DNA of 56,470 bases from the NCBI GenBank assembly GCA_021794595.1, contig JAJYQN010000006.1:1-56470 (forward strand). The letters are read 5' to 3'. The stretch comes from Pseudomonadota bacterium. GTDB lineage: Bacteria > Pseudomonadota > Gammaproteobacteria > Acidiferrobacterales > Acidiferrobacteraceae. Position numbers and translations under genes: made by a program. The notes below the pieces were generated by a model. It saw only the letters and a program-made list of their open reading frames with translations, searched no databases and was not told the origin of the DNA. Shown piece after piece: positions 3,537 through 28,612 of the stretch (within the stretch, counting starts at the first letter, position 1; each line of letters starts with the position of its first letter).

Positions 3537-3644
3537 AAGGATGGCGTCACCAGGAAGGATGGCGTCACCAGGAAGGATGGCGTCACCAGGAAGGATGGCG
3601 TCACCAGGAAGGATGGCGTCACCAGGAAGGATGGCGTCACCAGG
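3537..3644 (+). repeat. 18-bp tandem repeat, six perfect copies
   Basis: The unit AAGGATGGCGTCACCAGG occurs six times without a mismatch at 3537, 3555, 3573, 3591, 3609 and 3627. No copy occurs elsewhere that I could see in the window. Perfect identity suggests recent expansion, as in a variable-number tandem repeat. No spacer sequence separates the copies, so this is not a CRISPR array. Confidence 0.95.
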
Positions 3645-3660
3645 GCGGGCGCCGCCCTGG
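3640..3660 (+). other. GC-rich perfect hairpin after the tandem repeat
   Basis: CCAGGGCGG and CCGCCCTGG form a perfect 9-bp stem around a GCG loop; the left arm uses the CCAGG of the last repeat unit. It is followed by CTTAAAA and not a T-run, so it is only a weak candidate for a rho-independent terminator. Its position between divergent genes gives it no obvious transcript to end. Confidence 0.6.
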
Positions 3661-3890
3661 CTTAAAATGCCGCCAGTGGCGCTTGAACCACGGTTCTCAC
3701 GGAAGGCTTCGGGTATACTCCGAGATCTTTGCGCCCCGCCCCGTCCCGGAGCGCGGTGGGGCCGCGCGAGCCGCGGACCCTGAGGGCTCTCCATAAGGCG
3801 AGAGGCGGGCGCGGTCGACAAAAAGACTGTCTCAGGGGGCGGTCAGGTACGGGAGGAGTCAGGGTGTGGCGGGGGAACGAGGGGGATTGA

Positions 3891-5973: not shown

Positions 5974-5994
5974 CGCCTAGACCCTTTCTAGGCG
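5974..5994 (+). other. perfect inverted repeat upstream of ribF
   Basis: CGCCTAGA and TCTAGGCG form an 8-bp stem around a CCCTT loop, 38 bases before the ribF start and about 110 bases after the DUF2203 gene. There is no T-tract, so it may be an operator or mRNA hairpin and not a classical terminator. It does not resemble an FMN riboswitch. Confidence 0.4.
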
Positions 5995-6031
5995 ATACGT
6001 TAAGCTTTCACGTTTTCGGTTAGTGCCTATC

Positions 6032-13361: not shown

Positions 13362-13460
<99 letters not shown>

Positions 13461-13571
13461 TTTCACGTATCCAAGATTTTCCGGTGCCGCCACGGTGCCG
13501 CTCTCGGTAACGAGGGCGTCAGTCACCATATTACCGACCGTCATTAATACATCCGAGGCATACGTTGCGCT

Positions 13572-14401
13572 ATGAGCCTTACCAGCTTCATTAAGCAGCC
13601 GGAGGCCGCAGCCAAGTTACAGGCTTCATTCTGGATTAGCGCGCGGACGCAACCCTGGGGAGCGTGCGCGCGAAGATGCGGACCAGGCTCCGATCGTATT
13701 GTGTGGTAAGCCGTACCGCATTATCAGGCGTTGGGACACTGGCGAGGGACAGTCTCGTTATAAGGCCGCGAAAATTATAACAACCGATGGCCAGAGCATC
13801 GCTATTAAGGTTAAGCCGCGCAGCAAGAGATATAGTCTCGTTGGCACCGCTTTTGACTACCTTCTTCGGTTCGAGCTTCAGCGCCGCGCTCCGCACGCGA
13901 TATCGCGGCCGTGGATAGCTAAGGCGGCAGCAAACCGCTTACCTGTGAGCTATACAGAGAAATGGCGGAATTCTCCATTTTATATAACTCTCGCCCCAAA
14001 TGAGTACCCGCCGGAAGGAGCCATCCCGGGGGATGACTGTGGGAATGCCTGGATCGACGGGGACAAGGTGACCCGCCACATTGTCGCCGTGCTGGAAAAA
14101 GCCAAATCGGCAATGGCGGCTTATTCGCAGCAAAAAGACCCAACAGCTACTGAATAGACGGCGCTAGCCGCTCATGCCATCCGACTGGCGAAGCTCGATA
14201 CTGTCTATCGAACAAACCAACTGGAACCAGGTTTCGAAGAGATGGACCCTGAGGATATTCAAGACTTAGTCAATCTCTTAGCAGTCACCCCATTTAACGA
14301 CCTATTACACGACGAAGTCCTGTTATTAAACCCTGATTTCGGAGAGACAGGACGCATGATCGGCGGTGCCGATGCGGATTTAATCGTTGGTGACATCCTT
14401 T
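13572..14401 (+). pseudogene. broken PD-(D/E)XK-like protein gene
   Basis: The remains of one gene in three pieces. ATG 13572 starts MSLTSFIKQPEAAAKLQ, which I recall as the opening of a family of uncharacterised proteins; the frame is then lost near 13650-13700. The next frame carries RYSLVGTAFDYLLRFELQ and ends at an in-frame amber TAG (14155-14157). The same frame reopens directly after it with LAKLDTVYR and DLVNLLAVTPFNDLLHDEVLLLNPDFGE-type sequence up to GGADADLIVGD. In intact relatives the acidic residues here are followed by an IDIKT-type motif, a PD-(D/E)XK nuclease pattern; here the gene is cut exactly before it by the 26-bp repeat at 14402. Function is therefore lost. Family recall is from memory. 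Confidence 0.65.
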
Positions 14402-14427
14402 CGATTTACGGGCACGACCTCGGTACC
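14402..14427 (+). repeat. 26-bp direct repeat, left copy
   Basis: Identical to 14993-15018. The sequence is the coding DNA for the last residues of the integrase (GTEVVPVNRK, minus strand), so the left copy is a detached duplicate of the integrase 3' end. The two copies bracket the DUF4160/DUF2442 pair. Confidence 0.93.
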
Positions 14428-14499
14428 AGTTTTCCCTGCATAAATTTTCCTTTCAATACCCGGATGTCTGCGCGTCGGTTGCATGCGTGGCCCTCTTGT

Positions 14500-14763
14500 T
14501 CATGGCTTTCTCCTCGGCGCCGGTGCCCCCCTCAGCAAGCCCTCCGTACTCAAATCCTCGTCGAGTCCCGGCCAGTGGATGCCATAGCCGCCACCGGCGA
14601 TTTCCCACTTCGCGCGATCCGCGGTGCTGGCATGGGCCAGACGAGGGTACCATTCGAGCGGAACCGATATGTTGCGGCCGTCCATAAGGCGCACGGACAG
14701 CATGTCCTCGGTGATCTGTACATCTGCTACGCGCTCATCCGCGCTTGGTGCCAAAATGCCCAT
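14500..14763 (-). CDS. DUF2442 family protein
   Basis: An 87-residue protein with the DUF2442 pattern: VQITEDMLSVRLMDGRNISVPLEWYPRL, then WEIAGGGYGIHWPGLDEDLS and an EGLLRG tail. The family has no settled function. It commonly sits immediately behind a DUF4160 gene, as here, where the two overlap by 29 bases, and such pairs have been suggested to be toxin-antitoxin-like. The gene is on the minus strand behind the integrase and inside a 26-bp direct repeat. Confidence 0.78.
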   Translation of the reverse strand: MGILAPSADERVADVQITEDMLSVRLMDGRNISVPLEWYPRLAHASTADRAKWEIAGGGYGIHWPGLDEDLSTEGLLRGAPAPRRKP

Positions 14764-14980
14764 ACCATGCCTCCAGTAGTTCTCTATAATGCAACTCGAT
14801 CAATCCCCGTAACTCTCGCAACTGGTGTGCGGCATATCCCGCGTTCCGCGCCAAGGCAACAGGCTCAAGCCAGAACTTGGCTGACAAACCCCCGCAATCG
14901 ACGTGTACATGCGGCGGCTCGTTCGGCTCATGACTGTAGAAATAAAAACGGTAGGGGCCATGTCGTAGGACCGTGGGCAT
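14735..14980 (-). CDS. DUF4160 family protein
   Basis: An 81-residue protein with the DUF4160 signature: GPYRFYFYSHEPNEPPHVHV near the N-terminus and a helical C-terminal half with the LRGLIELHYRELLEAWY motif. It is the usual partner of DUF2442. Its ATG overlaps the integrase stop (TAATG at 14982-14978), and there is no clear separate ribosome-binding site, so translation probably depends on the integrase. A toxin-antitoxin-like role is a guess from family company. Confidence 0.8.
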   Translation of the reverse strand: MPTVLRHGPYRFYFYSHEPNEPPHVHVDCGGLSAKFWLEPVALARNAGYAAHQLRELRGLIELHYRELLEAWYGHFGTKRG

Positions 14981-16275
14981 TAGCCGCGCTTCCGATTTAC
15001 GGGCACGACCTCGGTACCGGCCTTTACCCCAGCAGCCACAAACGACAACACCATCCCGCCCGGTGACGCTCCCCCCCGCGTTAAGAACGCATCTGTGATG
15101 CGCTGTATAGGGACGCGCAGGCTTTCTAGGCCGGGGACGATATAACCGGCGGTTACATCATCGCCCATTTTGTGGTTTAACAGACGCTTAACGGTGGAGT
15201 GCAAAAGGCTGAGTCCATCCGCGAGGGTGGCGAAGGTGCGGCGCAGGTCGTGCAACGTAAACGAGACACCCGAATGCGCGATAACCTTGCCGACGCCTCG
15301 GCGCGGTTCGATCAGGTACCCGCCTTTTCCCGGTCCCGGAAAGACGTAAACGCCAATGCCATCCCGCGCGCGGCGGCGTGTCAAGAGGTCATACAAGAAG
15401 TCCGACAATGGTAGGGTGTGATCCTCGCCGTTCTTGGTGTCGCGCACGGTGAGCGTTTTGGCCGACAAATCCACATCCCGCCAGGCGAGCGCCGCCGCCT
15501 CAGAGCGCCGTAGGCCCGTCAGGAGCAGGACGTGCAGATAATCAGCAACCACGGCGCCGGGGCCATCCGGGTCTTCGTCTGCAAGCGCACGCACGGCCGC
15601 GAACCAAGCGGGCAAGTCCGAGTCTCTCAAGACGGCATCGTGCCGCTTGGCGCGGTACCAAGCGCGCGTCTGCGAGAGTCGGCGCACCGGGTTGTCCAGA
15701 ATAATCGAATGGCCGTTCGGGCCTTCATAATTGGCGATGGCGAAATTAAAGAGCGCCCGCAACGTCCGCATAGCGAAGTTAGCGTAGGTCTCGCCGTGAT
15801 CCGTACCCAGTTGCGTATGGCGGCGGGCAATCATATCTTTTGTGATCGCAAGCAGCGGGCGGGGGTGCCAGTCAGCGAAGGCGACTGTCAGCGCGCGGTC
15901 GTAGTCGTACATCGTTTTAGGCTTCAGGTTTTTCCGGGCCGCACAGTAGTCCGTGAAGACTTCGGCCAGCGTAACGGCGCGCGCCTGATCGGCCCGCTTC
16001 TCCGTGATCGGATTAACCCCATTCGTGATCTGATTCAGGAGAGAGCGCGCTTTTTTACGGGCTTGTTCAATGGTCATAGCGGGGTAGTCGCCGAGGCGAA
16101 TGCGCCGCGATTGACCCTCAATCTTATGGCGCACAACGAACGTCCGCGTTCCACGCGGGGTCACCGCCACCTGTAAACCCGGCATCCCGGTGTCACCGTA
16201 ATAAGCCCGCTTACCGGCCAGCGCTGGCGGCAGGGCATCCAGCAACTTGACAGTAAACGGTTGGCGCTTAACCAT
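14980..16275 (-). CDS. tyrosine recombinase / P4-type integrase
   Basis: Site-specific recombinase that would insert and excise the element at tRNA-Thr. The 431-residue product has the P4-integrase N-terminal domain (DUF4102 type: YYGDTGMPGLQVAVTPRGTR, IRLGDYPAMTIEQAR), a central core-binding SAM-like domain, and the catalytic domain with TGLRRSEAAALAW (Arg I), HDLRRTFAT (His-x-x-Arg) and LLNHKMGDDVTAGYI (Tyr). All four RHRY residues are present. A longer open frame exists, but ATG 16275 has a strong GGAGGTGAG site, so I start there. The 3' end is duplicated at 14402. Confidence 0.92.
   Translation of the reverse strand: MVKRQPFTVKLLDALPPALAGKRAYYGDTGMPGLQVAVTPRGTRTFVVRHKIEGQSRRIRLGDYPAMTIEQARKKARSLLNQITNGVNPITEKRADQARAVTLAEVFTDYCAARKNLKPKTMYDYDRALTVAFADWHPRPLLAITKDMIARRHTQLGTDHGETYANFAMRTLRALFNFAIANYEGPNGHSIILDNPVRRLSQTRAWYRAKRHDAVLRDSDLPAWFAAVRALADEDPDGPGAVVADYLHVLLLTGLRRSEAAALAWRDVDLSAKTLTVRDTKNGEDHTLPLSDFLYDLLTRRRARDGIGVYVFPGPGKGGYLIEPRRGVGKVIAHSGVSFTLHDLRRTFATLADGLSLLHSTVKRLLNHKMGDDVTAGYIVPGLESLRVPIQRITDAFLTRGGASPGGMVLSFVAAGVKAGTEVVPVNRKRG
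14993..15018 (+). repeat. 26-bp direct repeat, right copy (integrase 3' end)
   Basis: Second copy of the 26-bp repeat, here in place as the last codons of the integrase gene. Together with 14402-14427 it frames a 565-bp segment containing the DUF4160/DUF2442 pair. Confidence 0.93.
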
Positions 16276-16284
16276 GCTCACCTC

Positions 16285-16315
16285 CGTAATCAGTAGGTCG
16301 AAACGGTGCCGCTCT
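16285..16315 (+). repeat. partial att core copy upstream of the integrase
   Basis: CGTAATCAGTAGGTCG (16285-16300) repeats tRNA-Thr bases 13395-13410, and ACGGTGCCGCTCT (16303-16315) repeats 13492-13504. Relative to attL the intervening ~81 bases are missing, as if by deletion. It abuts the integrase ribosome-binding site. A shorter AATCAGTAGGT lies at 16417-16427. Confidence 0.7.
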
Positions 16316-16444
16316 GGTGTCGCTTTGAGCGGGAATCGGGGGGCATATCCAGGGTGCACCATAGACATGGCAACAGTCTTAACTGTTTGTTTTAGGGAAG
16401 CAAGTGAAGGTTGGTGAATCAGTAGGTATACCGGCTGGCTCTAT

Positions 16445-16512
16445 TTCGTAATCAGTAGGTCGGGCGTTCGATTCGTCTCACCGGCACCATAAAATCAAGC
16501 ACTTAGCACAAT
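16445..16512 (+). repeat. attR: 68-bp direct repeat
   Basis: Right-hand copy of the tRNA-Thr 3' half and adjoining sequence, identical to 13393-13460. The next ~47 bases (16513-16559) also align with 13461-13507 without gaps at roughly two-thirds identity, mostly C/T and G/A differences. Confidence 0.95.
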
Positions 16513-16978
16513 CCTACTGTATCTGGTCTTTTCTGGTACTACCACGGTGCTACTTTTGGTCGCCGATCCGTACCAACGAGAAGATGGATGTGGAGGGTTG
16601 AATCCCGGTACCTGACCGATGCTGCGCGCCATGGAAAGCGAAGCGAGGACGCGGTGTCCGCGGGAGGCGTCGCGTTGCGTCCAGGGGAAAGTCCGGGCGG
16701 GTGGCCGCAGGCCACCTAGCTTAAGGACATCGATACGTAGTCCCGTTATTGTGGGCGAGCCTCTTCTGCGAAAGACAAGCGCACGGCTCGCCCGCAGGAC
16801 GGCAGCAAGCCTCTCGTAGCTTCGCTGTGAGATCATGTATTGCGCCGAGATCGAGGGCGCGAGGGCGACTTGTACGTCCCGTCGCGCATCCTAATGGTAT
16901 GTCGCCCCCTCCCCAAATGGCATCAATAGCGCCAAAGTGGAGAGTGTGATGTCCCACTCCCATGGAGAGGAGATGATC
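16513..16978. other. noncoding region with several strong hairpins
   Basis: No supportable gene between attR and the IS1111-type transposase. Hairpins are dense: GGTGGCC/GGCCACC with a GCA loop (16700-16716); a 12-bp stem between 16750-16761 and 16785-16796, core GGGCGAGCC/GGCTCGCCC, with a nested TCTT/AAGA stem inside; and CGCGG/CCGCG near 16650. GGGGAAAGTCCGGGC at about 16684-16698 resembles a piece of RNase P RNA but nothing else of that RNA is present. It could be a structured RNA or element end. Confidence 0.4.
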
Positions 16979-18013
16979 ATGAAGATCACAGCGATGGGGA
17001 TTGATTTGGCAAAGCGGGTGTGTCAGATCCATGGGGTAGATACCCACGGACAGGCAGCCCTGAAGAAGCCACTCAAACGTCATCAAATGCTGACGTTCTC
17101 CGCCAACCGGAAGCCCTGCTTGATCGGCATGGAGGCCTGCGGCAGTGCCCATCACTGGGCCCGGCAATTGACCGCTCTCGGATACACGGTGAAGCTGATG
17201 GCCCCGCAATTTGTGCGGCCTTATGTGCGGACTAACAAAAATGATGCCGCCGACGCCGAAGCGCTCTGTGAGGCGGTGGCGCGTCCCAGCATGCGTTTCG
17301 TACCCGGAAAGACGGCGGAGCAACAAGCCATCCTCGCTGTGCACCGCGCCCGCCAGGGGTTCGTCAAGGCGCGCACCGCTTAAGGCCCATCAGATCCGCG
17401 GATTGCTCTCGGAGTTCGGGCTCGTGATCCCGCAAGGCATCAGCCATATTGCGAAACAGATCCCAAGAATACTAGATGCCGAGAACGGGTTGCCCGACAC
17501 CATGCGCCCGTTGATCGCGCGGCTCGCGGCCCACCTGGGTGAGCTGGACCGCCAGGTGGACGAACTCGAGGCCCAGATTCAGACGTGGCACCGGCAGAAC
17601 GCCGAGAGTCGGAGGCTAGCAGAGATACCGGGTATCGGCCCGCTTACGGCCAGTGCGCTTGTGGCTTCGATCGGGGATGCGAAGACCTTCGCCCATGGGG
17701 CAATGCGCGGCCTTCCTCGGGCTCGCGCCCAGGCCGCATGCGAGCGGGGCTAAGCCGACGCTTCTGGGCGTAAGCCCAGCGCGGCGACAGGTATCTTCGT
17801 ACGCTGCTTGTCCATGGGGCGCGGGCCGTGGTACGGGTGGCCGAGCGCCGGACCGACCCTAGGGATATTTGGGTGAAGCGGCTGCTCGATCGGCGCCACA
17901 AAAACGTCGCTGCCGTGGCGCTCGCCAATAAGAACGCACGCACCGCCTGGGCGCTGCTCGCTCACGGACAGAACTACCGGGTGGATTACGCGCCTTCGGG
18001 CCGGAGTGCGTAG
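16979..18013 (+). pseudogene. IS1111-type (IS110 family) transposase, frameshifted
   Basis: A DEDD transposase of the IS110 family, IS1111 group. ATG 16979 starts MKITAMGIDLAKRVCQIHGVD (first Asp), followed by IGMEACGSAHHWAR (Glu) and TNKNDAADAEALCEA (Asp pair). The frame breaks near 17383, where one extra T creates a TAA, continues in another frame through the C-terminal EIPGIGPLTASALVASIGDA helix-hairpin, and breaks again near 17700 and 17800. The last piece, VHGARAVVRVAE...NKNARTAWALLAHG, ends at 18013. At least three frame changes make the protein inactive. The noncoding 3' end typical of the group follows. Confidence 0.88.
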
Positions 18014-18240
18014 CCGGGTCGAAGGTATGGACCCAAGACCGGTTCATTGACAAAGGAGGAAGCTCACCACCGATTGCACAGGCAATCATGACGTGATGGC
18101 AATGAGGTTAGACCGTGACCGGGAAACTCTGCGCGCGCCTTCGTGCATCAAGCACGTTTCCCTGATTGAAACCCCGGTCAGCGGATTCCATCAGGGACAG
18201 AGACGCTAAGTCTCACACAAAGTCCGGCTGTATGGCTGCA
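18014..18240 (+). ncRNA. IS1111 3' noncoding end, possible seekRNA/bridge RNA locus
   Basis: IS1111-group elements carry a long noncoding segment after the transposase that is known to encode the guide (seekRNA, related to the IS110 bridge RNA) that specifies target and donor sites. The sequence after 18013 has the look of such an end (GGAGGAAGCTCACC..., GTTAGACCGTGACCGGG...) and several short inverted repeats, such as GTGCATCAAGCAC near 18140. I cannot fold it or define ends. The transposase is dead, so any RNA would be a relic or act only in trans. Confidence 0.35.
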
Positions 18241-18244
18241 ATCT

Positions 18245-18860
18245 TCACCTTCTTACCGTCATAACGTGAGGGCTTGGCAAACAGGGGGCGACCATGTATG
18301 GCGCGCAGCGCTGGAAGACGATCTTCTGGACTGGGGCCGCGAACGTGAGGGTCGTCAGCCACTCGCCATGGGCCTTGGTCCATTTGGCCTTACCCGAGGC
18401 ATAGAGGCGGCCGTGGCGCAGGAGGAAGGCACTGAGACGCTGCTTGGCGCTCAAGCGCCTTGGTATCTTCCCGGGCGCGGGTGAGGTCCCGCACCGCCTC
18501 TTGCTCGGGTCCCGGGACCCAGACCGCGGTGAGCTCACCGGCCCGATGCAAGCGGGCAAGGGATTCACTATCCCGGCGGTCGGTCTTCACCCGATCCCCG
18601 GGCTTTGTGGGGATGAGCGAGGGGGCGGCCACCATACAGTCATGGCCGATATGGGTCAGCTGTCGATAGATCCCGTAGCCACAGGGACCGGCCTCGTAGT
18701 AGAAGGATAAGACTTCCCCCTGGGGGCTCAGTTTCTTTACGAGTGTCACGATCGCCTCGGGCGTATTCGCGATCTCCCCGTAATAACGAGGCTTATTTTG
18801 GCCGGCGTCGGCAATGGCCACCGCGATGGTGTCTTTGTGTGTATCTAATCCTATGTACTT
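18245..18860 (-). pseudogene. IS110-family transposase fragment
   Basis: A second, different IS110-type transposase, read on the minus strand. It opens with KYIGLDTHKDTIAVAIADAG (first Asp) at about 18860 but without an in-frame start codon, then shows SFYYEAGPCGYGIYRQL (Glu) and VKTDRRDSESLARL (Asp pair). Near 18430 the frame shifts inside ALER/AKQRLSAFLLRHGR. The remainder fades after APVQKIVFQ near 18300, so the C-terminal half with the serine motif is missing. A 5' and 3' damaged remnant. Confidence 0.82.
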
Positions 18861-19127: not shown

Positions 19128-20006
19128 TTAATGGTCGTAGCAGGATGGTCGCAGCAGGAGTTTGCGCACGAGGTAAAGATTGGCGAGCACGCAGGTCACG
19201 AAGAGCCTGCGGGCGTTCTTCTCAAGACCCCGATAACGGACCTTGGTGAAATGGAAGACGCCCTTAATGACGCCGAAAGCATGTTCGACGCGGCTGAGGA
19301 TTTGGGACTTCACGCGATTCTTGGCGCGCTCGACCTCGTTTACGACGCCCTTATATCGATAGCGGCGATTCGTGAGGTCGCGGGCCTTGGGGGCGTGTTG
19401 GCAGAGGACGTCGGTTTGGCCTTGGTAGGCCGAGTTGCCCCACACCCGGGTCTCGTCGCCATGGAGAAGATCGGCTAAGACCGCAGCATCATGGACATGG
19501 GCGGCGGTGGCCACGATCGCATGGATCACCTTGGTTTTGCTGTCGACGCCTATGTGGGCCTTCATGCCGAAGTACCACTGGTTCCCCTTACGCGTCTGAT
19601 GCATGTCCGGATCGCGCTGCTTGTCCTTGTTCTTGGTGGACGAAGGGGCATTGATGATGGTGGCATCGACGATCGTGACCTTACTGACCTTGACGCCCAG
19701 GGACTCGAGGTGACGGTGGACTTCCTGGAAGAGCTTCTCCCCCAGGTGGTGTTTCTCGAGGAGATGGCGGAACTTCAAGATGGTGGTCTCATCCGGCACC
19801 GGCTCCCGGCCCAGATCGATGCCAACGAAGGCACACATGGCTTGGGAATCATACAGCGTTTCTTCCGCTCCTGGATCCGAGAGATTGAACCACTGTTGGA
19901 GGAAATAAATGCACAGCATGCGCTCCAAGCCCACCGGGGGCCTGCCGTTCTCGCCCTTGGGGTAATAGGGTGCGATCACCGCGCAGAGGTCCTGCCAGGG
20001 CACCAC
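19128..20006 (-). CDS. IS5-family transposase
   Basis: DDE transposase of the IS5 family. Visible are APYYPKGENGRPP, the QQWFNLSDPGAEETLYDS segment, the first Asp in TIVDATII, the second in VHDAAVLADLL...GNSAYQG and the Glu region RVEHAFGVIKG. The open frame is intact for 292 residues, but the family N-terminus (THRKPTRREKFLSDREKV) is still readable upstream of the first possible start, GTG 20006, with no ATG, GTG or TTG in that stretch. So the native start codon is probably lost and activity is doubtful. I could not define terminal inverted repeats. Confidence 0.85.
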   Translation of the reverse strand: MVPWQDLCAVIAPYYPKGENGRPPVGLERMLCIYFLQQWFNLSDPGAEETLYDSQAMCAFVGIDLGREPVPDETTILKFRHLLEKHHLGEKLFQEVHRHLESLGVKVSKVTIVDATIINAPSSTKNKDKQRDPDMHQTRKGNQWYFGMKAHIGVDSKTKVIHAIVATAAHVHDAAVLADLLHGDETRVWGNSAYQGQTDVLCQHAPKARDLTNRRYRYKGVVNEVERAKNRVKSQILSRVEHAFGVIKGVFHFTKVRYRGLEKNARRLFVTCVLANLYLVRKLLLRPSCYDH

Positions 20007-20348: not shown

Positions 20349-21341
20349 CTACTGGCCTCCACCTAGGGCTACACTCTTGACAGGTTCGGTAAGTGGCAAA
20401 GTCGCTGAAAAGAAGGTCTCGGCTATCGCTTCGTGGACAGAGCTCAAGTAACCCTGGAGGTCTTCTAGGAACTCATGTAGTCCGCGACTAATCACTTCCT
20501 CAATACGCGCGTAGTGGAGTTCAGAGACCAACCGGCCCAACCGTCTCTCCGCTTGATTGGGCGCACTTTGGCGCATGCCTGTACTCAGGCATTGCAATGA
20601 CTCGGCAGCCTGATCAAGGCACCATCTTATCGCCCGCGGAAACTCTCGATTGAGAATCAGGAAATCCGCCACTTTAGCGGGCGAGATGCTTTTATATTTT
20701 TTCCGATACATCTCAAAAGCGCTTGCTGACTTTAAAAGCGCCGCCCATTGGATACTGTCCACAGTACTCCCGATACCTTGCCAGCGCGGCAGCAATATGA
20801 AGTATTTCACATCGAGGATTCGCGACGTTTTATCCGCGCGCTCAACCATTTCGCCAAGCCGCAGGAAGTGCCACGCATCCCCGTGCGACATAGTCGCATC
20901 GGCGATTCCGTCAAATAGGTGGGTGGCCATCTTGACCTCGGTATAGAAATCATGCGGATTCATAAGTGCGTAATCGCTTTCCGCATAGCCCTTCAAGAAG
21001 GCATAAAACCGATTCGCCTGCTCCCACATTTCTGAGGAAATTGTATCGCGGACCGATCGCGCATTCTCCCGCGCCTTCCAGGCGCATGACAGTATCGAGT
21101 TGGGGTTCTCTCGATCAAACGTCAAAAAACGCATCACACTATCGCGCTCGGCCACTCCGTATCGACCCGCAAATAAAGGCTGGCCGCCAACGGTATCGAT
21201 AAGGGGCTCCCACTGGTCGCCATAATCTGCTGCCGCATCTAAAGTCAGGTGAAGATTGACATCCACAAGTCGCGCTACACTTTCTGCCCGCTCAAGATAT
21301 CGACTCATCCAATAAATCGACTCAGCCACTCGACTTAACAT
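20349..21341 (-). CDS. alpha-E domain protein (DUF403)
   Basis: A 330-residue all-helical protein of the alpha-E family, recognised by MLSRVAESIYWMSRYLERAE at the N-terminus and the repeated, acid-rich helices after it. Alpha-E proteins are consistently encoded next to a circularly permuted ATP-grasp protein, a transglutaminase-like protein and often the Anbu peptidase; all four are present here. The set has been proposed to form a peptide-ligating and peptide-processing system, but the substrate is unknown. It lies 27 bases downstream of the ATP-grasp gene on the same strand and is surely cotranscribed. Confidence 0.9.
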   Translation of the reverse strand: MLSRVAESIYWMSRYLERAESVARLVDVNLHLTLDAAADYGDQWEPLIDTVGGQPLFAGRYGVAERDSVMRFLTFDRENPNSILSCAWKARENARSVRDTISSEMWEQANRFYAFLKGYAESDYALMNPHDFYTEVKMATHLFDGIADATMSHGDAWHFLRLGEMVERADKTSRILDVKYFILLPRWQGIGSTVDSIQWAALLKSASAFEMYRKKYKSISPAKVADFLILNREFPRAIRWCLDQAAESLQCLSTGMRQSAPNQAERRLGRLVSELHYARIEEVISRGLHEFLEDLQGYLSSVHEAIAETFFSATLPLTEPVKSVALGGGQ

Positions 21342-21368
21342 AGCGCCCCCGATTCTGAATCGTTTCTG

Positions 21369-22814
21369 TTAGCTCTGTAGCACCCAGGTATCCTTACTGC
21401 CGCCGCCTTGTGAGGAATTCACCACAAGCGAGTCGCGCTTTAAAGCCACACGAGTCAATCCACCCGGTAGCACATAAATCTCTTGACCGTAAAGAACGTA
21501 GGGGCGCAGATCCACATGTCGCCCCTCAAAATGTCCCTCTACGAGGACCGGGGCGCGAGACAGACTCATGGCGGGTTGCGCGATATACTGTCTCGGATGC
21601 GCTGTGATTTTCTCCCGGAATAACGCACGATCAGATGCTGTTGACGTAGGACCTACCAACATGCCGTAGCCTCCCGATCCATCGGTCGCTTTAATCACCA
21701 TGTTTTCCATATTCGCAATCACGTAATCCCTGTCGCGTTTTTCTCCACATAAATAGGTCGGCACATTCGGGATCAATGGCTCTTCTCCCAAGTAGTATTT
21801 AATGATCTTCGGCATGTAAGCGTAGACCGCCTTGTCATCGGCCACGCCAGTCCCAGGCGCGTTCGCTAAGGCGACATTACCGGCTTGATATGCGCGCATA
21901 AGCCCTGGAACGCCTAAGAGTGAATCTGAACGGAACGCTAACGGATCTAAAAAGTCATCGTCTATCCGCCGATAAATCACATCGACCCGCTCTAGGCCGC
22001 GGGTATTTCGCATATACACCGCGTCGTCAATAACCAAAAGATCGCGCCCTTCGACAAGCTCAATACCCATCTGCTGCGCAAGAAAGGCATGTTCAAAATA
22101 GGCAGAATTGTACATTCCCGGTGTTAGAACGACAGTAACGGCTGAGTCCATTGGCGTAGGAGCCAGAAACTCCAAGACGTTTAGCAAACGGCTTGGGTAG
22201 TCATCGACAGCCCTGACGCGCGAGGCGTCAAAAACTTGTGGCAAGGCGCGCTTTAGAATGCGACGATTTTCCAAAACATAGGAAACGCCAGAGGGGCAGC
22301 GCACATTGTCCTCCAGAACATAGAATTGTCCTGTTTCATCACGAATCAAGTCGGTCCCCGATATATGATTCCAAATTCCGCGCGGGACAGTGAGCCCAAC
22401 ACACTGCGGTCGATAAGTGGGTGCCGACAAAACAAGCTCTCGTGGCACAATCTTTTCGCTAAGAATTCTCTGTTTACCGTAGATATCGGCGAGGAACAGA
22501 TTGATCGCATGCCCCCGCTGCTTTAAGCCCTGCTCTATTTTGTTCCATTCGCTCGCATCAATAATGCGTGGAATGATATCAAACGGAAGAATCTTTTCGG
22601 CCCCCTCTGCTCCGCCGTAGACTGCAAACGTGATGCCCATTCGATACATAGCCGCCTCTGCTGCGCGCTGATGTTTCAGTATCTCTACGGCAGATAAGCT
22701 ATCCAAACAATCCAACAGAAAACGGGAACCAGGGCGCGGAGTACCGGTTGCATCGAACGATTCATCGTAGAAAGATCCTACGCAGTACGTTTGAAAGTTC
22801 ATAACGTTGGCCAT
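21369..22814 (-). CDS. circularly permuted ATP-grasp protein (DUF404/DUF407)
   Basis: A 481-residue ATP-grasp-fold ligase of the circularly permuted type 2 class. Diagnostic segments are YRMGITFAVYGG, FDIIPRIIDASEW, RECVL-type LEDNVRCPSGVSYVLENR, VVLTPGMYNSAYFEHAFLAQQMGIELVEGRDL, and VIKATDGSGGYGMLVGP, the ATP-binding glycine loop. Enzymes of this fold join a carboxylate to an amine through an acyl-phosphate, so it is the probable peptide-bond-making member of the alpha-E/ATP-grasp/transglutaminase/Anbu set. The ATG at 22814 follows GAAGGG; it is the first gene of the minus-strand pair. Confidence 0.92.
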   Translation of the reverse strand: MANVMNFQTYCVGSFYDESFDATGTPRPGSRFLLDCLDSLSAVEILKHQRAAEAAMYRMGITFAVYGGAEGAEKILPFDIIPRIIDASEWNKIEQGLKQRGHAINLFLADIYGKQRILSEKIVPRELVLSAPTYRPQCVGLTVPRGIWNHISGTDLIRDETGQFYVLEDNVRCPSGVSYVLENRRILKRALPQVFDASRVRAVDDYPSRLLNVLEFLAPTPMDSAVTVVLTPGMYNSAYFEHAFLAQQMGIELVEGRDLLVIDDAVYMRNTRGLERVDVIYRRIDDDFLDPLAFRSDSLLGVPGLMRAYQAGNVALANAPGTGVADDKAVYAYMPKIIKYYLGEEPLIPNVPTYLCGEKRDRDYVIANMENMVIKATDGSGGYGMLVGPTSTASDRALFREKITAHPRQYIAQPAMSLSRAPVLVEGHFEGRHVDLRPYVLYGQEIYVLPGGLTRVALKRDSLVVNSSQGGGSKDTWVLQS

Positions 22815-23293
22815 CCCTTCGTCTATGGCGGCCGGGCTAGGCCCGGTCCGCTGATCGGGAACCTTGGGCTGCGCGTCATCGTGCTAAAGCGTCTTCCAAA
22901 TGACTGAGAGCAATATCCATGCCGATGTATACCTTATGGGTAAGGAAGGCCATTAAATGCTCCATGCGCCCGTTTCCTGAGCGGAACGCCTTATTCCATA
23001 CTCTTGAATACGCCCCAGTTTGGGCATGTCTGCTTCAAAAACGGGCACGATGGGCCGCCTAACTTCTCAAAATAAACGGGTCACGTGCAGAGGAGAGGCG
23101 CTTGCGCCAAACAATTGTGGCCATAATGAAGCGGTGCCAGAAAAAACGTGGTCGGTAAGCTCTATGGCACACACTTCAGGCGCTTTCGGCATCAGTCTTG
23201 CACTAACGCTCAGAAGAGTAGGAAGACCCACACCTAGGCCGCCAACGATCAGCGCCTCAGGCGATGAGGCAAGCCTTTCAAGGAGGGGCGTGC
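22815..23293. other. divergent control region of the ATP-grasp/Anbu set
   Basis: About 480 bases between the minus-strand ATP-grasp/alpha-E pair and the plus-strand Anbu/transglutaminase pair; it must hold promoters for both. I see no near-consensus sigma70 boxes. A 50-codon minus-strand frame (22876-23031) reads KVYIGMDIALSHLEDAL, faintly like an IS110 N-terminus, but has no supporting context. Confidence 0.4.
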
Positions 23294-24076
23294 ATGACAT
23301 ACTGTTTGGCCATTCGGGTAAATGCAGGGCTTGTCTTGTGTTCAGATTCCCGAACGAACGCCGGCGTTGATAATATGAATGCCTACTCAAAGATGCACCG
23401 CTTTGCTTGGATGGGCCAACGCTACTTCACATTACTTTCGTCTGGCAATCTCGCAACTACCCAAGCTGTTATAAAAAAACTCCACGGTGACGTCAAACAA
23501 GGGGCGGTCCCGAACCTCCAGAGCGTGACTTGCATGCAAGAAGCAGTGGACTATGTCGGCATGACCAACACGCTTGTCCAGCGGCAGCAGAGTGAGCGGG
23601 ACACGGCTCACACGAACTTTGAAGCGAGCTTTATCCTCGGCGGCCAGATCTTTGGGCAGAAACCGGAAATCTTCATGATCTACCCGCAGGGCAACTATAT
23701 ACATGAGTCGCACGAGCACCCTTTTTTGCAAATCGGCGAATCTAAGTACGGTAAACCGATTCTGGACCGCGTCATTACCCCGACTATCGACCTTGAACGG
23801 GCTGCCCGGTGCGCTCTTGTCTCTATGAATTCCACGATGCGAAGCAACGCGACAGTCGGGCCACCGGTGGAGTTACTCATACATAGACGTAACACGTTCG
23901 ACGAGGGCATATTTCTTCATCTCGGAGATGATGACTCATTTTTTCAGGCCCTCAGTCAACGATGGAATGAGGGGCTCGTACTCGCCCTAGAAAACCTTCC
24001 AAGATTCTCTTGGGAGGATGCCGGTGAGAATACGCATACGGGGGGGCAGATCTACCCCTTTCCCCCCAACCCATGA
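23294..24076 (+). CDS. Anbu-type proteasome-like peptidase
   Basis: A 260-residue N-terminal-nucleophile hydrolase related to HslV and the proteasome beta subunit, matching the bacterial Anbu group. ATG 23294 has a perfect AGGAGG site 7 bases upstream, and the product begins M-T-Y-C-L-A-I. After Met removal, Thr1 would be the nucleophile, with the Asp of CSDSRTNAG at position 17 and the Lys of YSKMHRF at about 32, matching the proteasome catalytic set. Anbu forms open helical ring-like assemblies. The stop overlaps the transglutaminase start by 4 bases. It is the proteolytic partner in the alpha-E/ATP-grasp set. Confidence 0.9.
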   Translation: MTYCLAIRVNAGLVLCSDSRTNAGVDNMNAYSKMHRFAWMGQRYFTLLSSGNLATTQAVIKKLHGDVKQGAVPNLQSVTCMQEAVDYVGMTNTLVQRQQSERDTAHTNFEASFILGGQIFGQKPEIFMIYPQGNYIHESHEHPFLQIGESKYGKPILDRVITPTIDLERAARCALVSMNSTMRSNATVGPPVELLIHRRNTFDEGIFLHLGDDDSFFQALSQRWNEGLVLALENLPRFSWEDAGENTHTGGQIYPFPPNP

Positions 24077-24975
24077 ACTCCTCCCTTGCCCTCCGTCATC
24101 GCATCCACTACCACTATGATCGCGCGATTCTCTTAGGTCCTCACCTGATCAGGCTATGCCCGACAGCCCATAGTCGCCTGCCGACCCGCGACTACGAACT
24201 TACCATCACACCCACACCTCAGACCATCCATTGGCAAGAGGATTCTTTTGGTAATTCTGTCGCTCGTGTCGTGTTTTCTGAAAAAGCCCGCGACCTAACG
24301 GTTGTTATGAAGGCGGTGATCGACTGGGTCGATATCAACCCGCTGGACTTCCTGCTAGATCGCTCCGTTGAACACTGGCCGTTTTCCTACGATTCACACC
24401 TACTAAAGTCTCTTACCCCCTATCTTGAGGTCTCAGCAAACGGGGCTCGTTTCGAGACCTTTATGTCCGACCTCCCATGCAAGAGTTCGCCGACTGTGGC
24501 GTTCCTTGCGCACCTCAATCACTACATCGCACATCTCATTACCTACACAACTCGCCTGGAAACCGGTATCCAGACCTGCGACGCGACTCTTGCGCAAAGA
24601 ACGGGGGCGTGTCGCGATAGCGCCTGGCTACTTATACAAGTAGCCCGCCAACTGGGGCTTGCGGCCCGCTTTGTCTCGGGTTACCTCATTGAGCGGTCTC
24701 AGTCGGTCGATCCCACGACCACGGGAATAGCGCCCCGTTCTGACTCCATGGCCTTGCACGCGTGGGTTGACATTTACCTGCCGGGTGCTGGCTGGATCGG
24801 CTTGGATCCAACATCTGGCCTTTTTGCAGGCCCCGGGTATTTGCCACTAGTGTGTGTACCGGATCCCATTTTCGCGACACCCATTGAAGGGACATGCGAA
24901 CCGAGTTCGATCGAGTGGGACTATACCCAAACCGTAGAACGTATCCCTCGCCATACACCGGGCAATGGCTGCTAA
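24073..24975 (+). CDS. transglutaminase-like cysteine peptidase family protein
   Basis: A 300-residue protein with a bacterial transglutaminase N-terminal beta domain (LRHRIHYHYDRAILLGPHLIRL) and a papain-like transglutaminase domain. The catalytic triad is C180 (RTGACRDSAWLL), H229 (MALHAWVDIYLPG) and D245 (GLDPTSGLF). Such proteins in the alpha-E/ATP-grasp cluster are thought to cleave or transfer peptides, not to crosslink proteins. No signal peptide is visible, so it acts in the cytoplasm. It is translationally coupled to the Anbu gene through an ATGA overlap. Confidence 0.92.
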   Translation: MNSSLALRHRIHYHYDRAILLGPHLIRLCPTAHSRLPTRDYELTITPTPQTIHWQEDSFGNSVARVVFSEKARDLTVVMKAVIDWVDINPLDFLLDRSVEHWPFSYDSHLLKSLTPYLEVSANGARFETFMSDLPCKSSPTVAFLAHLNHYIAHLITYTTRLETGIQTCDATLAQRTGACRDSAWLLIQVARQLGLAARFVSGYLIERSQSVDPTTTGIAPRSDSMALHAWVDIYLPGAGWIGLDPTSGLFAGPGYLPLVCVPDPIFATPIEGTCEPSSIEWDYTQTVERIPRHTPGNGC

Positions 24976-25046
24976 TCTCAGACTGAGCTAGGCTCAATAA
25001 ATACGGACGCCTTCAATCGCGGCATATTGACGATCAGAGGTGTGTG

Positions 25047-25298
25047 ATGCAGGGACTACCAGAACAGGTGTATACGCCGCAATATCGGGCCCAGGCGGGG
25101 CGTTGGGTGACCGAGAAGAAGAAGTCTGTCCCCCAAGCGGCTCGTGAGTTCGGGATGTCGGCTAGGACCTTGGCGAATTGGGCGTACAAGACGCGGCACG
25201 ACGAGGGAGTAAGGCCTACGGAATCGCGCCGGCCGCCGGCCGAGGTGTGGCTCAGCCTTAAGCGTGCCAATCCGGAGTCCTTATCGGAGGAGGCCTAA
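25047..25298 (+). pseudogene. IS3-family orfA (transposase_8) remnant
   Basis: An 83-residue frame with the IS3 OrfA helix-turn-helix: VYTPQYRAQAGRWVTEKKKSVPQAAREFGMSARTLANWAYK. Past residue 50 it loses the leucine-zipper and LERENEILKK-like part that OrfA normally has, and no orfB follows. It is a stranded piece of an IS3 element; an orfB 3' end occurs at 28690-28919 on the other strand. It is too short to act alone. 25299-25430 holds nothing recognisable. Confidence 0.75.
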
Positions 25299-25430: not shown

Positions 25431-27107
25431 TTAGGGGGTCTGGGTATCGTTTGGCAAGGGATCATGGGACGCCTCCGAGGCTGGTAGGAGGACGTGGAAT
25501 ATGGTGCCTCTAGGAAGGTGTGGTTCGGCATAGATGTAGCCATCGTGCCGTTTTACGATGGAATAGGTGGTCGCGAGCCCAAGCCCGGTACCGCCACCCT
25601 TGGTGGTAAAGAATGGCTCGAATATATGGGGCATGGCCTCTTCCTGAATGCCGATGCCATCGTCTTTGACTTCTATATGGACGTAAGGGCCCGAGCGCCC
25701 TCTGAACGTGGCGGTTTTGCGGGGATTCATGTCGTTATAAGCACGGACCTGAATGCGCGCCGGTTTGGAGGGGTCTGGTGGAGGATTCGTAGCCTCCTGG
25801 GCATTGAGGATGAGGTTCGTAAATACCTGAGACAATTGGCCGTTATCGAATTCGCAAGGCCATAGGTCGGCGGCAATATCAAGCGCCACGGTGTGGCCGC
25901 TCATGGCCAACAGCGTAAGAGATTCCGTGAGCGGCTCTGACAGTACGCCTTTTTGGCGGATCGGAGCGCCGCCTTTGGCGAAGGTGAGTAATTTACGCGT
26001 GAGTTCGCGGGCGCGGAGGATCGCGTTTTCCGACTCGAGCAGCATCTGGCCGACCTTAGGTAATGCGCTCCCGTAGAGCTTGGCGAGCCCTACGTAGCCG
26101 AGAACAGCTGTGAGAATATTGTTGAAATCATGGGCAATCCCGCCAGCGAGGATCCCGATCGATTCGAGTCTCTGCGTCTTGATCAGTTCGTCCTCCAGGC
26201 GGCGTTTTTCGCTGATATCGCGAAAGACCAGGACAACGCCGATCATCTCACCCTGCCGCGTACGGATGGGAGCCGCGCTGTCATTGATGCTGACGAGAGA
26301 CCCGTCCCGTCTGACAAGGAAGGTGTGGTTGGAAAGCTCGGCGGTCATCTGGGTTCGGAGAACAACGGTCACGGGGTTTTCCTGAGGCAGGCGCGTATGT
26401 TCGTCGATGAGTGGGGCGACTTGGGTAAGGGGGCGCCCCAGAGCATCTTCGCGGCTCCAACCCGTACAGCTTTCCGCGGCCTCATTCATGAGCGTAATTC
26501 GGCCATCGGTGTCAGTGCTGATCACGGCGTCCCCAATGCTGTGTAGGGTCACAGATAGCCGTTCCCGTTCGTCTACGAGGGTTCTCTCGGTCGCATGGAG
26601 GGTGTGGTAGGCGACTTGCAGTTCAAGGCGTGCCTCATCAAGATTGCGAGCGAGTGCCCGGGCGCGCTCTGCGCTTTCGGTTGCTGCCTGCATCCGTTGC
26701 TGAAGGCCCAGGGTCAGTAACTCTTGGCGCGGTGCTGCGGCAAGTAAGGGTAGGAAGCGTAAAAGCCGTTTTAAGGCGGCTTCATCGAGCCTGTTCGGGG
26801 CGATGAGTACCAGGATGCTGCCGTCGTCGGCGCGGATCCCAAAAACCTCTTTTTTGGTATCGCGCTCAGGATAGGGTAGGGCACGGACGATGCGGCTCGC
26901 GGCGTGCGCGGTATCGCAAAGAAATGAACGCCATTCTCCAGAGGGTAGGGTTTGTAGGAGGCCTGGTGCTGGTAGAAGGGCGTCTAGGAGAGGGTCCTGG
27001 ACGAATAGGATCGCATCTTCGGCCCCTACTCTCTGTGCCAAGCCCTTGAGGGCGGACGGACGCTCCTCGGGAAGGGCAAAGGCCGTCAATAAGGCGATTT
27101 CATCCAC
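25431..27107 (-). CDS. cytoplasmic PAS histidine kinase
   Basis: A 558-residue sensor kinase without membrane helices. An N-terminal region of unknown type (1-145) is followed by a coiled coil (146-190), a PAS domain (about 190-310: SIGDAVISTDTDGRITLMNEAAE and PIRTRQGEMIGVVLVFRDI), the HisKA dimerisation domain with His326 in GGIAHDFNNIL, and an ATPase domain with N-box LILNAQEAT, G1 DDGIGI, F EPFFTTK and G2 GTGLGL. No response regulator is adjacent. The FIST-domain gene upstream ends 2 bases before its start, so the pair probably forms a sensor unit in which FIST binds the ligand. Confidence 0.9.
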   Translation of the reverse strand: MDEIALLTAFALPEERPSALKGLAQRVGAEDAILFVQDPLLDALLPAPGLLQTLPSGEWRSFLCDTAHAASRIVRALPYPERDTKKEVFGIRADDGSILVLIAPNRLDEAALKRLLRFLPLLAAAPRQELLTLGLQQRMQAATESAERARALARNLDEARLELQVAYHTLHATERTLVDERERLSVTLHSIGDAVISTDTDGRITLMNEAAESCTGWSREDALGRPLTQVAPLIDEHTRLPQENPVTVVLRTQMTAELSNHTFLVRRDGSLVSINDSAAPIRTRQGEMIGVVLVFRDISEKRRLEDELIKTQRLESIGILAGGIAHDFNNILTAVLGYVGLAKLYGSALPKVGQMLLESENAILRARELTRKLLTFAKGGAPIRQKGVLSEPLTESLTLLAMSGHTVALDIAADLWPCEFDNGQLSQVFTNLILNAQEATNPPPDPSKPARIQVRAYNDMNPRKTATFRGRSGPYVHIEVKDDGIGIQEEAMPHIFEPFFTTKGGGTGLGLATTYSIVKRHDGYIYAEPHLPRGTIFHVLLPASEASHDPLPNDTQTP

Positions 27108-27109
27108 GA

Positions 27110-28276
27110 CTAGTCCGGTAATACGCAGACAACGGCGGTGCAGTTATGAAATCCCTGGAATTGTCCTGTAGCGCGCACCACTTGGCCGTAGGTATTGCAA
27201 CCGGCCAACGGGGTGTCTGGTAGCAAGTCACTGACCGCTTGTAGTTCTTGCTCAAAGTGGCTGCCCAGTCGTAGGCGGGTCGCAACGCAATCAAAAAACA
27301 GAGCGGCCGCAGGCGGCCCGGCCATATGACTGAGCGCAGTACGAGTGGCTGCCGCGGCCGCGGCGCGGGCCGAATGAGTCGTCGCTTTCATGACTCGAAT
27401 GAGCGAATGGACAGGCACGTCGGCCGCGCACTGGATCGCGCCATCAGCCGTGCCCGAAAGCGGTACCCGCAAGCGGTACTGTCCCGCTGTTTCGACTCCT
27501 ATTATGTGCTCTAGAAAAAACGGCAACGGTTTGTTGCGGTCGAAAGGGATCCCGATATTCCGGGCGTACTCTTCATACACATCGAGCGCGGGAAGTGAGT
27601 TGATGCTTTCGATCAGCGACCCATGCGCCGCGGTGACCCTCATGAGCGCCGAGTCCGGTTCCCAGCCGTTAGCAGAGCCTATTCCTATTGGCTTGTCCGC
27701 TAAAATTTCGAGCACCAAAACGGCGTCTTCATAGGCTTTTGTGCCCATAAAAACATGGGTGTTTTGGAATTGGCCATTGTCGCCCGCGCCGCCGCCAAAA
27801 AACTGGTGGCCCCCGCGGGTCAGTGTCGTCAATTCAGCCACAATATCCTCGCTCTGGCCGGCCAATGTATCGATCAAGACCAGAGCGGCCTTACCGGGAA
27901 GCAGGCTATCGATTCCCTTAAACCCGTGCGCCGCTTCCCGTGCCGCCTGGTGAAAATTGCCTTTAACGCCGCAGCCTAGACCCGCCGAAAACCGCAGGGT
28001 ATCGGACTGGATCGCGTAGGCAACAGCGGAGCCTTGCTTGTGCATTTTCTGGGTGAACTCCCCGGCGGACGAGCAGCCGACGAGACAGTTCGGTTTACAG
28101 CTTGTGTGGAGAGCGGTGAGAAGGGTCTCGTACTGAAAGTGTGGGGAGGCAAAGACGATTATGCAGTCGATCTTCCCATCGCCTAGGGTCTTTAAAAGAC
28201 CGGATGCGAGCTCGCGTCCGGCGTCAGCGCCGTCCGCGGTATTTGTGTACGCTACTGCAACCCGAGTTGTGCTCAT
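27110..28276 (-). CDS. FIST domain sensor protein
   Basis: A 388-residue soluble protein with a FIST N domain (about 1-190: CIIVFASPHFQYETLLTAL, CLVGCSSAGEF, GGGAGDNGQF) and a FIST C domain (about 200-388: EYARNIGIPFDRNKPLPFFLEH, CDCVATR-like FFDCVATRLRLG, PLAGCNTYGQV). FIST domains are predicted to bind small ligands such as amino acids and pass the signal to kinases or cyclic-di-GMP enzymes. I choose ATG 28276 (MSTTRVAVAYT); ATG 28297 is also possible. The next gene on the strand is a histidine kinase 2 bases away. Confidence 0.88.
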   Translation of the reverse strand: MSTTRVAVAYTNTADGADAGRELASGLLKTLGDGKIDCIIVFASPHFQYETLLTALHTSCKPNCLVGCSSAGEFTQKMHKQGSAVAYAIQSDTLRFSAGLGCGVKGNFHQAAREAAHGFKGIDSLLPGKAALVLIDTLAGQSEDIVAELTTLTRGGHQFFGGGAGDNGQFQNTHVFMGTKAYEDAVLVLEILADKPIGIGSANGWEPDSALMRVTAAHGSLIESINSLPALDVYEEYARNIGIPFDRNKPLPFFLEHIIGVETAGQYRLRVPLSGTADGAIQCAADVPVHSLIRVMKATTHSARAAAAAATRTALSHMAGPPAAALFFDCVATRLRLGSHFEQELQAVSDLLPDTPLAGCNTYGQVVRATGQFQGFHNCTAVVCVLPD

Positions 28277-28612
28277 TCGTAAACCCAAGCGGCGCATTGT
28301 GCCCCTGCGGCAGGCCAAGAAACCCCCGTTGGCTGAACCGAGCGGTGCCGCCAAAGTGCCGCTGGACATCAAACAGGGGCTTGATGCTGTCACAGGACAG
28401 CCCCTGCCTTCAATCCCCCCGCTCCTATATTTCTACCTCTACAATAGAGGTTCGGCCAGTCGGCTCCGGTATGGGGGCTGCCCCTAGCCTACAAAGGGAG
28501 GCTGCCTGGCTCTGCCGGGGGATATTTGCCTCGACCCTGATCCCAGGGGTGTTGTCGGAGGACTCGGGCAGGCAGTGAGGCACGCTCAAAAGGCTCGGCC
28601 GATGATATCTTG

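Follow-up and report, generated by a model that had tools for sequence, protein, structure and literature searches.

A divergently arranged variant of the Anbu operon with two gene pairs of different ancestry and sigma-54-type elements before both

What a bacterium gains from encoding an ATP-grasp enzyme, an alpha-E protein, the proteasome-like hydrolase Anbu and a transglutaminase-like protein side by side is the question raised by a locus in a 56,470-nucleotide stretch of contig JAJYQN010000006.1 (the whole stretch is called the window below) of a Pseudomonadota bacterium of the family Acidiferrobacteraceae (assembly GCA_021794595.1). The first-pass annotation, made from the sequence alone, had presented the four genes as the window's best candidate for an undescribed biochemical system. 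That description has to be withdrawn, as the four-gene Anbu operon was described earlier (PMC5666114, PMC6376114; most papers are cited here from excerpts), and the idea of peptide synthesis is that of Iyer et al. (2009), cited in both papers. The annotation was correct that such a prediction exists, but Fuchs et al. judged it less likely for Anbu (PMC5666114). Our analysis indicated that the window carries a real, intact member of this known, unexplained system. What is new is its layout: the two gene pairs diverge, differ in descent and are each preceded by a sigma-54-type element. Because of the two divergent pairs we classed it as a variant of the Anbu operon.

Two intact gene pairs and their ancestry

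All four reading frames were full length and above the cut-offs of their Pfam families (Table 1; PF08379 is Bact_transglu_N, PF01841 Transglut_core), with conserved catalytic residues, which bears out the claim that the four families are present and intact. The alpha-E and ATP-grasp models were covered over their whole length, the former at 349.5 bits (PF04168 cut-off, 20.8). Whole-genome searches of the window's genome, which is ca. 92% complete, returned a single match each for alpha-E, ATP-grasp, Anbu and PF08379. The ATP-grasp protein retained 103 of 103 columns that were at least 97.5% conserved among 124 sequences, and was related to the solved chain 3n6x_A (4.5e-160), deposited as a putative glutathionylspermidine synthase. 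The alpha-E protein had no solved relative by sequence (sole match, E 0.58); its AlphaFold2 model (mean predicted local distance difference test score 91.4) had no strand assigned and no fold match in the PDB at E <= 0.001, and its fold is therefore one without a solved structure in that search.

The start of Anbu is best placed at 23294 rather than at the upstream in-frame ATG at 23264, because AAGGAGG ends 7 bases upstream and Met-Thr opens 15 of 15 aligned Anbu proteins, the window's included. With that start Thr1, Asp17 and Lys32 fall in place, in line with the Thr1-Asp17-Lys of the annotation, and these correspond to the N-terminal Thr, Asp17 and Lys32/33 named in PMC6376114. Thr1 and Asp17 did not vary in the alignment, in which the Lys was conserved to at least 90%, and the C180-H229-D245 triad ascribed to the transglutaminase was likewise invariant in 25 of 25 aligned proteins. 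The 15-member Anbu profile matched five solved chains (1.6e-107 to 5.8e-86), three named Anbu and two named Peptidase, of which 5lox is an Anbu according to PMC8665760; no HslV or proteasome chain was matched at E <= 0.001. The S1 pocket positions of the window Anbu (T20/Y30/S48/L52/T55) were, with conservative differences, of the Anbu-1 kind (T20, F30, T48, L52, S55) given in PMC5666114, where the Anbu-2 pocket is I20, A29, R46, R50, T53.

The distribution of the four genes among relatives, on which the annotation had let its proposal depend, was non-random. In a sample of 60 genomes, the window's own among them, ATP-grasp was found in 16, Anbu in 15, alpha-E in 14 and a PF08379 transglutaminase over the cut-off in 6. 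ATP-grasp and Anbu occurred together in 15 genomes, ATP-grasp alone in 1, Anbu alone in 0 and neither in 44 (Fisher 3e-13, which is no strict probability as these genomes share kinship), so that Anbu was present in 15 of 16 genomes with ATP-grasp and the four families are linked as claimed. In G013 and G041, the two genomes with Anbu but no alpha-E, contig ends cut the locus, and among the genomes with ATP-grasp only G027 gave no detected Anbu. A seventh transglutaminase, under the cut-off and of another subtype (alignment A3), lay ca. 2-3 kb from Anbu in G025. In the phylum the ATP-grasp of the Anbu system was widespread, being present in 92 of the 160 genomes sampled (90 over the cut-off). 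Within the genus the cluster was held by 4 of 14 genomes, the other ten being 77-99% complete, and its copies were 69-74% identical for alpha-E, ATP-grasp and Anbu, and 48-50% for the transglutaminase.

The window genes form two divergent pairs, alpha-E with ATP-grasp on the minus strand and Anbu with the transglutaminase on the plus strand. Gene overlap, which had been taken as a sign of one regulated process, was confirmed for Anbu and the transglutaminase (4 bp, 24073-24076) but not for alpha-E and ATP-grasp, which are 27 bp apart. Anbu was also divergent from ATP-grasp in the genus copies of G004, G008 and G013 and in nine loci of the order (G020, G024, G025, G037, G038, G039, G041, G043, G055), and co-directional with it in G045 and G051.

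To judge from their trees, the two pairs differ in ancestry. The genus ATP-grasp grouped with that of G051 (support 100, FastTree), as did the genus alpha-E (support 96; the G013 contig lacks alpha-E), and placing them with betaproteobacterial/Acidithiobacillus loci was rejected by the approximately unbiased (AU) test (p 3e-6 for ATP-grasp, 5e-67 for alpha-E). Anbu of the genus was nested in the betaproteobacterial/Acidithiobacillus group (11 rows, support 99). A clade with those loci, L049 left out, was not rejected (AU p 0.064), and a clade with the G051 Anbu, a very long branch, was weakly rejected (AU p 0.021). The pocket of the G051 Anbu (L20, A29, T46, R50, R53) was nearer Anbu-2, in agreement with the trees. 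The change of partner could lie in either the window-type or the G051 locus. Locus L049, with two Anbu genes, is perhaps a second mixed locus, as its Anbu groups with the betaproteobacterial set and its alpha-E with another clade.

Sigma-54-type elements in the shared control region

The control region of about 480 bp that the annotation had seen between the pairs measured 479 bp and held sigma-54-type elements for both arms. In the window, 73 sites matched the core pattern GGCAC-N5-TTGCW with up to 2 mismatches, fewer than in shuffled sequence (94 on average), and such weak sites were therefore uninformative. Only seven sites had 1 mismatch; two of them lay in the 479-bp region, where 0.06 were expected from the window density, and both faced outward on the correct strands, GGCATGGATATTGCT at 94 bp from the ATP-grasp start codon and GGCATCAGTCTTGCA at 91 bp from that of Anbu. 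On a simple in-house scale (maximum 9.2), the ATP-grasp-side element scored 8.2-8.7 in all 4 genus loci, where it lay 76-95 bp ahead of the start of the hidden Markov model hit, and the Anbu-side element 8.2 in 3 of 4, the one in L043 being weaker (6.7). Aligned by blastn with five other loci (L030, L031, L043, L046 and L032), the control region gave only matches of 14-18 bp, located at the promoter-like element.

With the cut set at 8.2, a value chosen after the window's own scores were known, an element preceded ATP-grasp in 18 of 60 phylum loci (one neighbourhood per genome, from the 89 other genomes with an over-cut-off match among the 160), as against 6 of 453 other open reading frames (ORFs) and 0 of 60 antisense controls (Fisher 1e-13). 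Among GTDB and order loci the counts were 10 of 55, 2 of 299 and 2 of 55, respectively, and at a cut of 7.7 they were 11 of 55, 8 of 299 and 6 of 55. Most ATP-grasp genes thus lacked an element by this scale (42 of 60 in the phylum, 45 of 55 in the GTDB and order loci). A short frame in the region had been suspected to be the start of an IS110 element; a reading of the region as transposon debris was set aside, as it holds a sigma-54-type element found in genus relatives too. From its sequence, the region looks like a real control region serving both arms.

The window's genome encodes RpoN and NtrBC, its NtrC scoring 699.6 bits (TIGR01818 cut-off, 558.6). Under nitrogen limitation, wild-type Pseudomonas putida raised PP_2686-2688 by 12.6, 11.0 and 14.7 fold, and the study considers control of these genes by NtrB/NtrC likely (PMC7801951). 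In Burkholderia cenocepacia, NtrC and sigma-54 share I35_5080-83 among their targets; the domains given for these genes are ATP-grasp, alpha-E and transglutaminase-like, and no Anbu is named in the excerpt (PMC5491218). COG3484 was reported in predicted sigma-54 regulons (PMC12316311), and a metagenome correlation with urea metabolism genes was described (PMC3597751). The two gene pairs may share a nitrogen-starvation switch.

A metallopeptidase at the place of the transglutaminase

In order loci without the window-type transglutaminase, a zinc-ribbon metallopeptidase, here called Peptidase_Mx, adjoined Anbu; it was assigned to PF15887 with PF10005 by scanning two examples, and nine members fell in one ORF cluster. 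Its HExxH motif was invariant in 45 of 45 aligned members. At the family cut-off PF15887 matched in 30 of the 60 relatives, but 30 of the 40 matches listed were short stretches belonging to a different type of protein, for the most part at profile positions 90-165 with 23-35 bits; these were set aside, and only full-length copies (at least 337 bits) were counted. Full-length Peptidase_Mx was present in 10 of 16 ATP-grasp genomes and 0 of 44 others, and these 10 were exactly the ATP-grasp genomes without an over-cut-off transglutaminase. Together with the differing ancestries, this argues against treating the four genes as an indivisible set, as the annotation had done.

The best 80 of at least 592 GTDB Anbu relatives had Peptidase_Mx in 37 loci, a transglutaminase (counted at 240 bits or more) in 18 and both in 3. 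In 39 loci with full flanks and ATP-grasp/alpha-E, 22 had Peptidase_Mx only, 9 the transglutaminase only, 2 both and 6 neither (Fisher 0.0009); another set of 51 loci, left after the removal of 43 whose flanks were short or which had no ATP-grasp, gave 27, 13, 3 and 8 (Fisher 1.4e-4). Strict mutual exclusion, considered as a rule, held in the 16 ATP-grasp genomes at the curated cut-off and not generally. Mapped onto the ATP-grasp tree, the Peptidase_Mx label requires a minimum of 7 changes.

Across the phylum Peptidase_Mx occurred in 26 of 160 genomes, 25 of the 92 with ATP-grasp as against 1 of the 68 without (Fisher 5e-6). In 8 of these 25, no more than ca. 10 kb separated it from an ATP-grasp gene, which in six of the 8 was of a second, longer type, at ca. 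4-6 kb (G087, G154, G196, G202, G210, G214) and part of a related system that Peptidase_Mx may also serve. In another locus, L083, a short Anbu-like piece (3203-3328, 33 bits) stood by Peptidase_Mx, with a full-length Anbu (5992-6729) less than 3 kb on.

A fold search with Peptidase_Mx gave no PDB match at E <= 0.001. Zinc metalloprotease chains were among its top, non-significant ranks (E 0.14 and worse), in keeping with the published prediction of a zincin-like fold for DUF2248/PF10005 (PMC3650047). No published link between Anbu and a metallopeptidase was found in literature judged mostly by title, although Iyer et al. (2009) may describe one; the excerpts of PMC3650047 and PMC2701414 make no mention of Anbu. 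Peptidase_Mx may replace the transglutaminase, which hints at hydrolysis over cross-linking: a metallopeptidase would hydrolyse and not cross-link, and therefore the shared step, if both proteins serve one step, would be hydrolysis.

Explanations, genomic surroundings and known systems

The explanation that we favour, with a confidence somewhat short of even, is a system that makes and breaks amide bonds, is induced by nitrogen limitation and represents an Anbu operon that was acquired horizontally and rearranged. Under nitrogen shortage, an enhancer-binding protein, be it phosphorylated NtrC or another, would activate sigma-54 RNA polymerase at two back-to-back promoters. The left promoter would drive the ATP-grasp/alpha-E arm, in which ATP-grasp, with the helical alpha-E protein as its putative partner, would couple a carboxylate, activated as an acyl phosphate, to an amine. 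The right promoter would serve Anbu and the transglutaminase, an arm for cleaving these bonds or the tagged peptides, in which the protein with the transglutaminase fold would be a cysteine amidase or peptidase and Anbu a threonine peptidase. Ligase chemistry is proposed because of the ATP-grasp family and because the Yersinia enzyme releases phosphate from ATP (PMC6376114), and hydrolysis because Peptidase_Mx stands at the transglutaminase's place in many related loci.

A number of observations weigh against this explanation. Anbu-side elements were rare outside the genus (0 of 9, 1 of 79 and 0 of 33), the G051 locus (L032) had no sigma-54-type element before ATP-grasp, and the 5 NtrC-like repeats with 2 mismatches in the 479 bp, where ca. 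2.7 were expected from the window density, are ambiguous evidence of NtrC enhancer sites. A P. putida rpoN mutant induced PP_2686-2688 by 14.2, 16.0 and 19.6 fold, as strongly as the wild type, a result that speaks against a need for sigma-54 in this species; urtA-D, whose listed putative regulator is the same, likewise stayed induced in the mutant, and the Anbu gene PP_2685 changed only 1.12 fold in the wild type and 1.45 fold in the mutant (PMC7801951). The published homologues therefore conflict on rpoN, being dependent on it in B. cenocepacia (PMC5491218) and induced without it in P. putida. As for the proteins, none of the Anbu proteins assayed showed peptidase activity and the Yersinia operon proteins showed no specific interaction, according to the excerpted text (PMC6376114), and Fuchs et al. 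took inhibitor binding as a sign of protein degradation, with peptide synthesis less likely (PMC5666114). Among the 60 phylum neighbourhoods Peptidase_Mx was near ATP-grasp in 2 and a transglutaminase match in 54, and many Peptidase_Mx-bearing phylum genomes also held a transglutaminase. Replacement is not strict, since 3 of the 80 Anbu loci and several phylum genomes contain both, and kinship-corrected pair tests, with 1-2 and 1-6 pairs, had no power. A bolder version of the favoured explanation is offered as tentative: Peptidase_Mx, able to stand in for the transglutaminase, would be an overlooked fifth component of a reversible, nitrogen-starvation amide (tagging) cycle of exchangeable ligase and hydrolase pairs, and the window a chimera of such pairs of different descent under one bidirectional sigma-54 region.

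Much of the same evidence could be read as general nitrogen salvage, in which Anbu and the transglutaminase would degrade or deamidate ordinary proteins and ATP-grasp/alpha-E would tag them, as in a simple ubiquitin-proteasome-like system. The promoter and nitrogen evidence fits it equally (PMC7801951, PMC5491218), Anbu binds proteasome inhibitors, with Fuchs et al. favouring degradation (PMC5666114), and the window Anbu has a pocket of the Anbu-1 kind. However, the four genes include no unfoldase, no peptidase activity was measured in the work excerpted (PMC6376114), and one ATP-grasp/alpha-E lineage pairs with an Anbu-1-like partner in the window and an Anbu-2-like one in G051, because of which tag and protease would be loosely matched; we regard salvage as unlikely. 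We are more doubtful that the system makes one particular small peptide or amide metabolite, such as a storage compound, osmolyte or signal, which the hydrolases would mature or recycle. The amide-ligase family of ATP-grasp, with its putative glutathionylspermidine synthase relative, the proposal of 2009 (as cited in PMC5666114) and the locus of G027 (L040), where ATP-grasp, alpha-E and Peptidase_Mx are present and no Anbu was detected, are in line with it, but among the 17 neighbourhoods compared no cluster of ORFs of at least 90 amino acids (aa) beyond the five families recurred more than 3 times, and no metabolite is reported in the excerpts cited here.

That the cluster is a horizontally acquired passenger beside mobile elements, little expressed and of no current importance to its host, seems very improbable. 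Its patchy presence in the genus, its different place in G004, G008 and G013, its G+C content (0.53, the remainder of the window having 0.60), the transposase genes on both sides and the nearby tRNA-Thr integration site would suit such an origin, but four full-length frames, catalytic residues and promoter-like elements have been kept, and the genus copies have stayed as similar as given above. The drop in G+C was smaller or absent in the genus copies (0.60/0.64, 0.59/0.64, 0.64/0.63). The cluster was probably horizontally acquired and rearranged, as the favoured explanation supposes.

Table 1. Features of the window with their positions, strands and supporting evidence
Feature	Position	Strand	Evidence
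tRNA-Thr(cgt), probable integration site left of cluster	13362..13437	+	tRNA call
Left attachment-site-like repeat	13393..13508		84% identical to 16445-16560, 68 exact bases included
Phage-type integrase	14980..16368	-	PF00589 and PF13356
Right attachment-site-like repeat	16445..16560		Partner of 13393-13508; repeats tRNA end
IS110-type transposase pieces	17211..18821		PF02371 (part) 17211-17753 (+); PF01548 18390-18821 (-)
DDE transposase adjoining alpha-E	19128..20006	-	PF01609, PF05598
alpha-E protein gene, 330 aa	20349..21341	-	PF04168 2.5e-104; second gene of left arm
Circularly permuted type-2 ATP-grasp gene, 481 aa	21369..22814	-	CP_ATPgrasp_2 PF14403 7.4e-169
Shared control region, 479 bp, between divergent pairs	22815..23293		Sequence
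Sigma-54-type -24/-12 element, ATP-grasp/alpha-E arm, GGCATGGATATTGCT	22909..22923	-	1 mismatch
Sigma-54-type -24/-12 element, Anbu/transglutaminase arm, GGCATCAGTCTTGCA	23188..23202	+	1 mismatch
Anbu (proteasome-like Ntn hydrolase) gene, 260 aa	23294..24076	+	Proteasome PF00227 5.2e-08; Thr1/Asp17/Lys32
Transglutaminase-like protein gene, 300 aa	24073..24975	+	PF08379 2e-23; PF01841 9.3e-16; C180/H229/D245
Short transposase-type helix-turn-helix ORF adjoining transglutaminase gene	25044..25298	+	PF01527 2e-05

Left of the cluster, the tRNA-Thr(cgt), the integrase and the duplicated tRNA end form a small integrated unit (13362-16560). Entry by way of this integrase is not shown, because the cluster sits outside the repeat pair. 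Among genus relatives, other genes occupy the tRNA-Thr site; in L201 (G011) they include a related integrase. All 8 genus genomes fetched, out of 13 others with a thiO-like gene, had the same gene order, presumably lspA-ispH-thiO-tRNA-Thr, and to its right the content differed wherever the contig continued. The thiO-like gene and the cluster were ca. 500 kb apart in G004 and on different contigs in G008 and G013. On the right flank, a PAS histidine kinase lies beside a FIST-domain protein (25431-28393); the kinase, whose best genus match elsewhere was 50%, was unusable as a synteny marker owing to its many paralogues. Elsewhere in the window there are two ispH-like frames (10725-11669 and 39801-40766); the second, with matches of 52-55% to ispH-like genes in relatives, lies just ahead of a long gene run that resembles a hopanoid cluster. 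A reading frame at 3428-3796 has tandem copies of a short WRHQEG-like unit.

The exchange of modules, the metallopeptidase at the transglutaminase's place and the two-sided promoter elements make the question of function more testable. They offer handles on when to look (nitrogen limitation), on the possibility that the transglutaminase hydrolyses and on which parts need not match.

Among known systems, the closest is the Anbu operon of Yersinia bercovieri and Pseudomonas (P. putida PP_2685-2688), which comprises the same four families and, in P. putida, includes genes reported as induced by nitrogen limitation (PMC7801951). There the four genes form one operon of conserved order (PMC6376114), whereas in the window they form two divergent pairs of different ancestry, each with its own sigma-54-type element. 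Exactly the window's layout, with alpha-E/ATP-grasp opposite Anbu/transglutaminase, was found in Rhodocyclaceae bacterium C17_concoct.bin.29 (L046), whose Anbu (69% identity) was the best Anbu match among the GTDB matches listed; its ATP-grasp and alpha-E, however, belong to another clade, and its control region is only 135 bp long. In contrast, the G051 locus, of the same order, has the nearest ATP-grasp (72%) and alpha-E (68%) outside the genus, but is co-directional, with an Anbu only 30% identical and a pocket nearer Anbu-2. Gammaproteobacterial loci (L041 of G055, L101 of Alteromonas alba, L111 of Sedimenticola) share Anbu, ATP-grasp, alpha-E and the divergent arrangement, and differ in having the zinc-ribbon metallopeptidase (PF15887 with PF10005) at the place of the transglutaminase. 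A pairing of ATP-grasp with an opposing or same-process peptidase is likewise known from RimK/RimB and RloABC of Pseudomonas, although these use other ATP-grasp proteins and aspartic peptidases, with alpha-E and Anbu going unmentioned in the excerpt (PMC12239564).

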